Both the position numbers and the translations under genes were made by a program. From NCBI GenBank assembly GCA_903904755.1, contig CAIVDV010000068.1, positions 1 to 60,447 of the forward strand: a stretch of DNA of 60,447 bases, written 5' to 3'. Below the pieces are notes generated by a model, which saw only the letters and a list, made by a program, of their open reading frames with translations, was not told the origin of the DNA and did no database searches. Positions 1,635-4,897 of the stretch are shown one piece after another (position 1 is the stretch's first letter; each line of letters starts with the position of its first letter). This DNA comes from an uncultured Acidobacteriaceae bacterium (lineage in GTDB: Bacteria; Acidobacteriota; Terriglobia; Terriglobales; Acidobacteriaceae).

Positions 1635-3071
1635 TCAGCCAATCTCTACGGGATGTTTGTCGGCCACAACGGTGGCGATGGGCAGGGTGAAGCGGAAAGT
1701 TGCGCCGTTGCCGAGGCGGCTTTCCGCGGCGATTTGGCCGCCGTGGGTTTCGACGAGGCGGCGGACGAGGGCGAGGCCGAGGCCGGTGCCGCCGTCGGAT
1801 GCGGAGCCGAAACGGTCAAAGATGGAGCCGATGCGGTCGGCGGAGATGCCTTTGCCGGTGTCACGGACGGTGAACTGGACGAAGCCCTTGCGCTCTTCGG
1901 CCTCGAGGTCAACTTCTCCGCCGGAGGGGGTGTAGCGGAGTGCGTTGGCGAGGAGGTTGTCGAAGATGGTGCGGACGGCGCGGCGGTCGGCGCGGATGTA
2001 GGAGAGATCGGGGAAGGCCTTGATTTCGACGCGAACGTTGCGAGTTGCGGCCTCGTCGAGGTAGCGGTTGCGGGAGTCGACGAGGATGGCGTAGGGGCGG
2101 AGGTTTTCCGGGGTGGGGACGCGGCGGCCGCTGTCGAGCTCGGCGACATCGATGAGGTCGGCCATGAGGTCGGAGAGTTTGCCGGCGTCCTGGACGGCGG
2201 AGGTGACGAGTTCGACCTGGAGTGGGCGAAGCTCGCCGGCGTAGCCTTTGTCGAGGGCGTAGAGGCCTCGGCGGAGCTGGAGGAGGGGGTCGCGGAGCTT
2301 GCGGGATGCGATGGCGATGAACTGGCTCTTGAAGCGGTCGGTTTCGGAGAGGCTGGTGACGTCTTCGAGGGTGGTCACGGTGCCGAGGAGGCGGCCGTCG
2401 GCGTCGCGCATGGGGGTGGTGCGGAGGCGGTAGGAGCGTTCGCGGTCGCCGAAGCGCATGGGGAGCAGGGCGGCATCGCCTTCGGCGGCGACGGCTTTCT
2501 GCATTTCGACGGCGTTGCGGATGGCTGAGAGGATTTTTTCGCCGCCGGGGGTGTTGGCGAGGGCCATGCGGTCGTGGGCGGCGTCGCCGAGGATCTGGAT
2601 GGCGGCCTGGTTGAGCTTGAGGATGTGGCCTTTACTGTCGGTGACGATGATGGGCTCGAAGATGGACTGCAGGACTGCGTCGGAGAGCTGGAACTCCATT
2701 TGGCGGCGGCCCATTTCGGTTTCGCGGAGCTCGCGCAGGCGGACGGCGAGGCGGTTCATTTCGCTGGCGATTTGTCCGAAGGAGTCGTTGCCGGTGCCGG
2801 AGCGGCCGAGTTCGGCGCGGTGGGCGAGGTCGCCCTGGGCGATGCGGCGGATGTCGTGGGCGAGCTGCTGGACGGGGCGGAGGACGAAGTAGAGGGTGAG
2901 GCAGGCGGTGAGGGTGGCGGCGCCGGAGAGCATCCAGAGAATGACGAGGGATCGGGTGGTGTGGCCGGGGTGGCCGGCGGGGGCGAGTTCGCGGTGGACC
3001 CAGATGGCGAGGGTGAGGGAGAGGGCAACGAGGATGGTACAGCCGGCCGTCATTCGCTGGGTGAGATTCAC
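1635..3071 (-). CDS. Membrane histidine kinase with HAMP and PAS, lacking the phospho-acceptor His
   Basis: A 478-residue sensor kinase with two N-terminal membrane segments (about 8-27 and 41-64), a HAMP-like linker, a PAS domain around 125-240, and a kinase core. The ATP-binding domain looks intact: N-box N376, DTGKG at 404-408 and GTGLG at 429-433. The H-box reads ASRKLRDPL where the family has ASHELRTPL, so residue 257 is Arg (CGC at 2303-2301) instead of the phosphorylated His. It probably cannot trans-phosphorylate by the usual route and may act as a pseudokinase or phosphatase. The start is GTG. The gene is followed at once by the KdpD-type protein, which suggests that the pair reconstitutes a split KdpD. 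Confidence 0.88.
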
Positions 3072-3185: not shown

Positions 3186-3415
3186 GCGGGGCGGAGAAGG
3201 GAATTCTGCGGGAGGAGGGGCGGTGGGGAAGGGGGCTTATAGGATAATGAAAGGAGCAAATACGGAACCGAAATGAAAGATAGTCCCACCGTCGCGCGCT
3301 GCTGAGCGATTCTCCCGGGCCGTAGTTTTCAGGATTTACCAAGCCAGGTTTCCAGGAGTATCCGGCATTGCCTTGCCGGTTGGGGGCTGGGTGTGGTTTG
3401 ACGAGAGGTTGTCTT

Positions 3416-4897
3416 TTGAGGCACGATTGCGCGTCCCGTTTCCCGGCCTTCCGATTGCTGTTGCTTTCGGCGGCGGCGCTGCTTATCCATGGGTATCACC
3501 TGGGTGTGGATGACGCGGAGATTTATCTGCCCGCGGCACGGCGGCTGCGGGACCCGCAACTGTATCCGTTTGCACCGGAGTTTTTCCTGTCGCATGGGCA
3601 TTTGTCGCTGTTCAGCCCGCTGCTGGCGGCGACGTCGTGGGCGACGCATCTGAGCATTGATGCGGTGACGCTGGGGTGGTACTGCGTGACGCTGTGGCTG
3701 ATGCTGGCGGCGACGTGGCAGTTGGCTTCAGCGTGTTTTGAGGGTGCTTCGGCACGGTGGACGGCGACTGGGCTGCTGACGACGCTGCTGGCGATGCCGG
3801 CGGCCAATACCGGGTTGCTGCTGATGGATCCGTACCTGACGGCGAGGTCGTTTTCAACGCCGCTGACGCTGCTGAGCATTGGGCTGTACTTGCGGCGGAA
3901 GTATGCGGCGGCGCTGGCGACAATGGTGGTGACGGGGCTGTTTCATCCGCAGATGGTGATTTACCTGCTGTTCCTGTTTACGGTGATGTTTGTGGCGGAC
4001 CGGGTGATGCACCGGGATGAGAAGCGTGTGCCGGTTCTGGCGGGGGCGGGGATGCTGCCGAGCGGCTTTCACTTTGCGCCGGCGACAGGGCCGTACCGGG
4101 AGGCGCTGTACTCGCGGGACTATTTCTTCTTGTACAACTGGGAGTGGTACCACTGGCTGGGCGTGCTGGCGCCGCTGGGGCTGTTCTGGTGGGGCTGGCG
4201 GCGAGGCTTCCGGGGGACGACGGAGGCGGCGCGGCGCCTGAGCTTTGCGCTGATTCCGTTTGGGGTGATTTCGATACTGGCGGGGACGCTGTTTGCCAGC
4301 AGCACGAGCTTTGACATGTTTGAGCGGCTGCAGCCGATGCGGTCGTTCCACCTGATTACGATTGTGATGATGCTGTTTCTGGGAGGGCTGCTGGGCGAGT
4401 ATCTGGTGCGGGGCCGGGTTTGGCTGGGCGCGCTGGTGCTGGTTCCGGTGGCGGCGGGGATGTTTGTTGTGGGGCAGCAGACGTATCCGCACAGCGCGCA
4501 GATTGAGCTGCCGGCGAAGACAAGCGCGAATCCGTGGATAAACACGCTGCTGTGGGTGCGGGAGAATGTGCCGGCGGATGGGGTGTTTGCGGTGGATGCG
4601 GCCTATTTGCGGGATGAGGTGACGGATACGCACGGATTTCGCGCGTTGAGCGGGCACTCGGCATTGGCGGATGCGTACAAGGACAGCGGGGTGGTGAGTC
4701 TGTTTCCGGATTTGGCGCCGGAGTGGAAGCGGATGAGCACGGCCGCGACGGGGGTGAACCACTTTACGGTGGAGGATTTCCGGCGGCTGCAGGTGGAGTA
4801 TCCGGCGGTGAACTGGACGGTGATCCACGGGGCTGCGCCGGCGGGGTTGATTTGCCCGTATGAGCAGGGCGGGTTTGTGGTTTGCCGGTTGCGGTAG
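3416..4897 (+). CDS. Polytopic membrane protein of unknown function
   Basis: About 490 residues with roughly ten hydrophobic segments and a C-terminal soluble portion of about 110 residues. An acidic patch (DDAEIYLP) directly after the first membrane segment recalls the first loop of GT-C glycosyltransferases, and the overall shape resembles DUF6798-type proteins, but neither assignment is secure. The frame is open from a TTG at 3368. I prefer the TTG at 3416 because GAGAGG sits seven bases upstream. The gene stands alone: a divergent kinase gene lies upstream, and a palindromic repeat plus a bidirectional terminator lie downstream, facing argG. I cannot give a substrate or pathway. Confidence 0.7.
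   Translation: MRHDCASRFPAFRLLLLSAAALLIHGYHLGVDDAEIYLPAARRLRDPQLYPFAPEFFLSHGHLSLFSPLLAATSWATHLSIDAVTLGWYCVTLWLMLAATWQLASACFEGASARWTATGLLTTLLAMPAANTGLLLMDPYLTARSFSTPLTLLSIGLYLRRKYAAALATMVVTGLFHPQMVIYLLFLFTVMFVADRVMHRDEKRVPVLAGAGMLPSGFHFAPATGPYREALYSRDYFFLYNWEWYHWLGVLAPLGLFWWGWRRGFRGTTEAARRLSFALIPFGVISILAGTLFASSTSFDMFERLQPMRSFHLITIVMMLFLGGLLGEYLVRGRVWLGALVLVPVAAGMFVVGQQTYPHSAQIELPAKTSANPWINTLLWVRENVPADGVFAVDAAYLRDEVTDTHGFRALSGHSALADAYKDSGVVSLFPDLAPEWKRMSTAATGVNHFTVEDFRRLQVEYPAVNWTVIHGAAPAGLICPYEQGGFVVCRLR

Follow-up and report, generated by a model that had tools for sequence, protein, structure and literature searches.

Two adjoining genes on the reverse strand lie at one end of the window, by which we mean the whole 60,447-nucleotide stretch of DNA analysed here. 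The window is an entire contig (C68 of genome G000), and DNA past the second of these genes on that side lies outside view. The first gene, 1635–3071 (−), begins with GTG and encodes a 478-residue protein consisting of predicted membrane helices, a HAMP domain, a PAS domain, a DHp-like region and an HATPase_c domain; we refer to it as the pseudokinase for reasons given below. All its features are on the (−) strand. Pfam calls three domains and no others: HAMP (PF00672, E 6.4e-6; residues 62–114, 2730–2888), PAS (PF08448, E 5e-9; residues 137–241, 2349–2663) and HATPase_c (PF02518, E 5.9e-28; residues 362–466, 1674–1988). DUF4118 is absent, and HisKA goes uncalled at E 1e-3. The H-box (residues 255–263, 2283–2309) reads ASRKLRDPL and lacks the phospho-acceptor His. 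As an earlier note on this DNA had reported, the acceptor place is taken by Arg257 (codon CGC at 2303–2301), and residue 261 is Asp. The ATP-binding boxes that it described as intact are present as well: the N-box with N372 and N376 (1929–1958), the G1 box DTGKG (residues 404–408, 1848–1862) and the G2 box GTGLG (residues 428–432, 1776–1790).

Three bases after the stop of the pseudokinase gene comes the ATG of the second gene, on the same strand (507–1631 (−), 374 residues). Its KdpD domain (PF02702, E 9.6e-90; residues 13–220, 972–1595 (−)) is the only PF02702 match in genome G000 and carries a Walker A motif GAAPGVGKT (G-X5-GKT, 1548–1574 (−)) and a Walker B Asp-Glu pair (E. coli D109/E110, 1332–1337 (−)). 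A Usp domain follows (PF00582, E 2.3e-8; residues 240–357, 561–914 (−)). Silberberg et al. (2024, PMC11018627) describe the KdpD domain as an atypical serine kinase whose phosphorylation of KdpB Ser162 inhibits the pump, and they define the residues concerned. By its domains and by these residues, we predict the product of 507–1631, hereafter KdpD-N, to be a stand-alone KdpD/Usp serine kinase of this atypical type, with no histidine kinase on the chain.

An AlphaFold model of the single pseudokinase chain, built on 17 sequences, is poor and supports the histidine-kinase fold only. In this low-confidence model (mean pLDDT 66.6), residues 2–32 and 35–78 form long helices. The model matches the fold of the pseudokinase DivL well (TM-score by target length 0.72–0.77), and DivL is also the best PDB sequence match of the protein (E 3.3e-35). 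Another of the fold matches is 9qq6, which we take to be the NifL–NifA complex.

Family matches were taken at >180 bits and >48% identity. Dropping 29 identical or contained copies reduced the 117 matches to 88 distinct sequences, one of them the window's own; all but two extend over position 257, which leaves 86. Of 250 sampled Acidobacteriaceae genomes, 61 have a match at E 1e-60. There are 33 close orthologues in named records (L031–L063), and the named strains with the gene include Terracidiphilus gabretensis S55 and Occallatibacter savannae AB23.

None of the 86 sequences has His at position 257, which rules out a sequencing error or a single-species oddity. The residues found there are Arg (41), Gln (29), Glu (5), Lys (3), Ser, Asp and Ala (2 each), and Leu and Asn (1 each). 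Within the DHp region this is one of the more variable columns, ranking 16th of 88 positions by entropy (1.97 bits). The earlier note had raised the question whether Arg257 is conserved across species; with nine different residues it is not, and the conserved trait is the absence of His together with the basic residue that follows, position 258 being Lys in 82 sequences and Arg in four. Orthologues from close species with His, which would have spoken against the note's reading, were not found in the family; His is found in distant relatives from other families. In canonical H-boxes, an acid directly follows the His (the equivalent of position 258) and serves as the kinase base, as in the H-box SHELRTPL of relatives, and E/DxxT/N at the His is the phosphatase signature. 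Position 261 is Asp in 65 sequences, Glu in 7, Gly in 4, Asn and Thr in 3 each, Gln in 2, and Ala and Ser in one each, which leaves Thr or Asn in 6 of 86. This loss of the signature, together with Lys or Arg after the acceptor place in all 86, disfavours the phosphatase role that had been suggested for the protein. DHp helix 1 stays conserved past the H-box.

Despite the lost acceptor, N372 and N376 are found in 86 of 86 sequences, and D404, G406 and G408 of the G1 box and G430 and G432 of the G2 box in 85 of 85. No stops interrupt the listed family matches. For 138 sequence pairs (80–97% identity, at least 420 aligned residues, unsaturated pS), dN/dS has a median of 0.10 and a range of 0.055–0.217, with dS (median 1.08) partly saturated. 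The claim that the protein has not decayed is borne out by these numbers. Selection keeps the pseudokinase as an ATP-site protein that lacks the acceptor, the neighbouring acid and, mostly, the phosphatase Thr/Asn. We therefore class it, from its sequence, as a pseudo-histidine kinase: the fold is kept, the acceptor is lost and the gene is under selection. Measured against a functional HisKA kinase, it has the N, G1 and G2 boxes and lacks the acceptor His, the acid and Thr/Asn, and a nearby response regulator.

The pairing with KdpD-N is conserved as well. In 83 of 88 family loci the adjacent gene downstream, in the same orientation, is KdpD-N, and in 77 of the 83 the two are separated by −14 to +7 nt. 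Four of the five loci without a scored KdpD-N are cut by a contig end, and in the fifth (L219) the gene was not joined by the gap rule. The two-gene unit described from the window alone is thus supported. All 61 pseudokinase genomes have a PF02702 match; it is single in 54, while G035, G078, G140, G158, G172, G194 and G247 have two or three. Walker A GKT, D109, E110 and R190 (E. coli numbering) are invariant in all 81 distinct paired KdpD-N sequences, the window's among them. Residue 39 (Trp39 in E. coli numbering) is Tyr in 66, Phe in 13, including the window, and Trp in two. No response regulator is found within 3 kb, or within the available DNA, of any of the 54 pairs that have at least 1 kb of sequence on both sides; the window's own pair is cut off downstream by the contig end, and a regulator encoded at an unlinked site may exist.

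The pseudokinases of the family end in a conserved tail, HPVEVG (HPVEIG in the window, 1635–1660), whose His473 is kept in 81 of 83 sequences via both codons. At first we considered this tail as a docking peptide, but in 78 of 83 pairs VEVG overlaps the KdpD-N ribosome-binding site, a Shine-Dalgarno-like stretch that falls in the final 21 nt of the pseudokinase coding sequence. The window itself lacks such a stretch at the end of the gene. Since the tail is also missing from the related kinases of loci L251 (which ends SIRHTA) and L252, it seems unnecessary for the common function.

The Kdp pump of the window's genome is encoded elsewhere. KdpA lies on contig C69, not on the pseudokinase contig, at a locus (L185) with kdpA, kdpB, kdpC, a response regulator with Trans_reg_C and a 582-residue histidine kinase, and with no KdpD-N. 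This kinase has DUF4118, HisKA and HATPase domains and an H-box, DSLAHAYKTPL, with the His intact; DUF4118 also occurs in the kdp-locus kinases of L186, L113 and L252. The earlier note had proposed that our two genes together form a split KdpD. That idea does not hold: the pseudokinase has HAMP and PAS domains and no DUF4118, it falls outside the kdp-locus histidine kinases in the kinase tree, and a KdpD-type histidine kinase with its His sits beside kdpABC on C69.

The same arrangement recurs in other pseudokinase genomes. In the first 20 kdp regions fetched from them (12–18 kb), a His-bearing histidine kinase is present in 17, a response regulator in 18 and KdpD-N in none. The regions without such a kinase are those of G001 and G235, which have no regulator either, and G109, which has a regulator only. 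Of six further regions, L238 (G172) holds a second KdpD-N and the other five none. The histidine kinase of L241 (G160) has its His (H-box ALAHDFLTPL). By these gene contents, the histidine-kinase/response-regulator arm appears to consist of separate proteins at the kdp locus. KdpB carries the motif SA(I/V)TGESAPVIR in 19 of the 20 loci (in L202 the search pattern caught a different GES), and TGES is present in the window genome's own KdpB. KdpA is found in 55 of the 61 pseudokinase genomes. A match is absent from G033 (99% complete), G208 (90%), G095, G158, G177 and G276. In the near-complete G033, the pseudokinase/KdpD-N pair (L125) occurs without a KdpA match, and another substrate of KdpD-N is possible there. 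None of the family loci that we read has the pair beside kdpABC. In family genomes without the pseudokinase, KdpD-N is often followed by a response regulator, mostly together with kdpABC, and the KdpD-N loci examined in them have a His-bearing histidine kinase nearby.

Relatives outside the family point to where the pair came from. Searching the phylum with the pseudokinase yielded matches of 32–47% identity in seven genomes of other families out of 297, plus four within the family. When one of these other-family kinases served as the query, 25 of 396 genomes matched, 19 of them outside Acidobacteriaceae. We read all 20 loci of these 19 genomes; 17 are His-bearing and three His-less. The His-bearing kinases have H-boxes such as SHELRTPL and SHQLKTPL and a response regulator gene within 300 bp in 17 of 17 cases. 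In nine of the 17, KdpD-N and genes of the Kdp pump lie close by; L253, for instance, reads kdpA-kdpB-kdpC-KdpD-N-histidine kinase-regulator. Four (L288, L289, L290 and L292) have regulators and no kdp genes nearby, and the remaining ones are partial or cut. The L288 regulator is of the sigma-54 activator type, and genome G626 (L284, L285) has two kdpABC-KdpD-N-histidine kinase sets, each with two response regulator genes.

The three His-less loci all lie beside kdpABC with KdpD-N. Their H-boxes are ASSKLREPL (L251), TAAQALQEPL (L256) and ASNKLRDPL (L252), and the G2 box of L256 is altered to GAGLE. L251 and L256 show no response regulator in the 16–17 kb fetched. In L252, the KdpD-N gene is followed by a DUF4118 kinase with its His and then a KdpE-like regulator. 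In the kinase tree, L251 and L252 group with the family pseudokinases (100/100) and L256 with the His-bearing kinases (100/100), so the His was lost independently at least twice; each loss coincides with the lack of a response regulator of the kinase's own. The pseudokinase trees hold 10 rows in one case and nine family rows in the one used to count losses. Judged by these relatives, the pseudokinase derives from a family of HAMP-PAS kinases whose genes are often part of kdp operons. The KdpD-N tree places the window copy with the operon copies of L251, L252, L253, L256, L284 and L285 (100/99); the L255 copy is a long branch outside this clade. The KdpD-N trees sampled 21 of the 81 paired sequences and, in the second, 10 of 81, with two L235 copies also left out. 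We rejected a shared origin of the window copy with the kdp-locus KdpD-N of other family genomes, which form a separate clade. Because both the relatives of the kinase and the place of the window's KdpD-N point to such operons, the two genes most likely left a kdp operon as a pair.

Silberberg et al. (2024, PMC11018627) show control by c-di-AMP for the short KdpD of Deinococcus geothermalis, and we considered whether this could apply here. A diadenylate cyclase domain (PF02457) is found in 1 of the 61 pseudokinase genomes against 100 of the 189 others in the family sample or, counted by genus, in 1 of 16 with the pseudokinase against 47 of 63 others, both comparisons ignoring relatedness. With the domain in a single genome of 61, such control is unlikely for most pseudokinase genomes. 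The Usp domains give a neutral result: the published c-di-AMP motif, (A/G/C)XSXSX2N(Y/F) (PMC8214093), occurs in 0 of 81 paired Usp domains (the window's included), 0 of 22 comparison copies and 0 of 7 others, and so tells none of the groups apart. Relaxing the motif to a two-serine core gives matches in 24 of the 81 paired and 7 of the 22 comparison domains; the latter include some copies from the pseudokinase genomes G035, G140 and G194, each of which has more than one. Overall, we see a moderate case against c-di-AMP input. Loss of the cyclase as the cause of the His loss was rejected, because the genomes with in-operon His-less kinases (G284, G510 and G539) all keep PF02457.

Taking these observations together, we think it fairly probable that a membrane pseudo-histidine kinase regulates a stand-alone KdpD serine kinase by a route other than a phosphorelay, and that the Kdp pump is probably controlled in this way. 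The pseudokinase, with its membrane-bound HAMP-PAS-DHp-ATPase fold, would no longer pass phosphate to a response regulator. Its dedicated partner would be the KdpD-N/Usp protein of the next gene, which by its residues is of the serine kinase type that phosphorylates KdpB Ser162 and switches the K+ pump KdpFABC off; KdpB may be the substrate here too. A signal would be sensed via the membrane, HAMP and PAS parts of the pseudokinase, which would bind ATP and, by direct contact, turn the serine kinase on or off. It could thus serve in trans as the input domain of a serine kinase from which the TM/GAF sensors known in E. coli KdpD are missing. Since the ATP site is retained, we suggest that nucleotide binding there sets the conformation, much as in NifL. 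NifL is a histidine-kinase-fold sensor that controls the P-loop ATPase NifA, the product of the next gene, by direct contact and without a phosphorelay; NifA, however, activates transcription, whereas KdpD-N is predicted to be a serine kinase. Of the roles that the earlier note had offered, ATP binding or scaffolding is plausible. An invariant ATP site is more in keeping with a protein that senses nucleotides or is still catalytic than with a passive scaffold, although the G2 box is altered in the independent His-less case L256.

Several findings run counter to this interpretation, and they bear on the alternatives. A second or third KdpD-N occurs in 7 of 61 genomes, and 3 of 20 kdp regions have no His-bearing histidine kinase. 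In the window's family the pair is unlinked to kdpABC, and KdpD-N may have another substrate, because 6 of the 61 genomes that carry the pair, one of them 99% complete, have no KdpA match. Both of these last points would fit a serine kinase module that responds to general stress or senses K+ and acts on a target other than KdpB, either another K+ transporter or an unknown protein. We regard this as unlikely, given that KdpA is present in the other 55 genomes, that the related His-less loci L251, L252 and L256 adjoin kdpABC, and that the catalytic residues match those of the KdpB kinase. Decay into a non-functional histidine kinase is highly improbable: nine different residues at position 257 and the failure of Pfam to call HisKA in the window protein would suit it, yet it is contradicted by the dN/dS values (138 pairs, all at or below 0.217) and sits badly with invariant ATP boxes, conserved pairing and the lack of stops inside the listed family matches.

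The conserved ATP boxes could instead mean that the ATPase domain still phosphorylates the His of a partner kinase within a heterodimer, for example the DUF4118 kinase of the kdp locus, and so tunes a KdpDE-type arm. Such a partner is at hand in 17 of the 20 kdp regions and, in L252, two genes from the pseudokinase. It is missing from the other three, however, and L251 and L256 show no further kinase or response regulator in 16–17 kb. The two groups of histidine kinases are also far apart in the tree, and the pairing conserved across loci is with KdpD-N, which leaves a heterodimer an improbable arrangement in our view. It is unlikely, too, that a phosphorylated response regulator docks on the DHp surface as the input, to be relayed to KdpD-N. 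DivL offers the model for such a sensor: it is the closest PDB match by sequence, its fold agrees well, and it has neither kinase nor phosphatase activity but acts as a sensor of DivK~P (PMC4211667). The conservation of DHp helix 1 past the H-box would fit, but could equally serve dimerisation or KdpD-N binding, and none of the 54 assessable pairs has a response regulator near it.

DivL is in any case a precedent for a histidine-kinase fold used without catalysis (PMC4211667). It resembles our protein in this fold, in its N, G1 and G2 boxes, in the lack of an acceptor His and in its PAS input. It differs in having Tyr at the acceptor place and in its link to CckA/DivK cell-cycle control in Caulobacter (PMC4211667), whereas the window family has Arg, Gln, Glu, Lys, Ser, Asp, Ala, Leu or Asn there, a HAMP domain, predicted membrane helices and a paired KdpD serine kinase. 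With no Tyr at this place among the 86 family sequences, we rejected the possibility that they are DivL orthologues. E. coli KdpD likewise unites a serine-kinase domain and a histidine-kinase-fold transmitter in one system, but does so on one chain with TM/GAF sensors and a working His673 (PMC11018627); here the genes are separate, the sensor is HAMP-PAS, the His is absent, and a separate DUF4118 histidine kinase is found elsewhere in the genome. The KdpD of D. geothermalis shares with our KdpD-N the KdpD plus Usp domains, the same Walker A/B and Arg residues and serine and histidine kinases on separate chains, an arrangement that according to the same source is frequent in Acidobacteriota. 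It differs in that our KdpD-N is encoded with a pseudo-histidine kinase, in genomes of which 1 in 61 has a cyclase domain.

The earlier note knew of no such variant among described Kdp systems. In part the arrangement is not new, as pseudo-histidine kinases are known and split KdpD in Acidobacteriota is published (PMC11018627). What we did not find in the literature is a conserved pseudokinase dedicated to a KdpD serine kinase: a word search of the text of Silberberg et al. (2024, PMC11018627) available to us for 'pseudo', 'KinB' and 'PAS domain' returned no pseudokinase partner, and a literature search met no mention of one in the titles and abstract beginnings of the CC-licensed PMC papers that it returned. 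If our interpretation is correct, this would be a natural case of a histidine-kinase fold that has given up phosphotransfer and been connected to a serine kinase instead, as the conserved partner of a stand-alone KdpD serine kinase in species of which 1 in 61 has a detectable diadenylate cyclase domain.

It is tempting to speculate further on how this came about, although here we are less confident and put the chances at a little under even. A membrane histidine kinase encoded in the kdp operon of Acidobacteriota may have turned, at least twice, into a His-less sensor whose output is the KdpD-N serine kinase. Allostery from pseudokinase to serine kinase would then carry membrane signals to the K+ pump with no need of a His-Asp relay, and would do so in family genomes nearly all of which lack a detectable c-di-AMP cyclase. 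Transcription would be left to a second, ordinary two-component pair. Because a series of states survives, from kinases at kdpABC that have both the His and a regulator, through kinases at kdpABC that have neither the His nor their own regulator, to the unlinked pair, the steps of such a conversion would be testable.

Two smaller observations concern the window itself. Many orthologues are about 600 residues long with a longer N-terminal part (605 in L124 of G031) against 478 here, and the N-terminal sensor part seems to have been shortened in the window's subclade. On the far side of the pseudokinase gene, and divergent from it, 3368–4897 (+) encodes a 509-residue hydrophobic, probably membrane, protein without a Pfam match. 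A similar gene lies on the same strand as the adjoining pseudokinase in several relatives (e.g. L002 and L007), and a local inversion around this gene in the window is possible.
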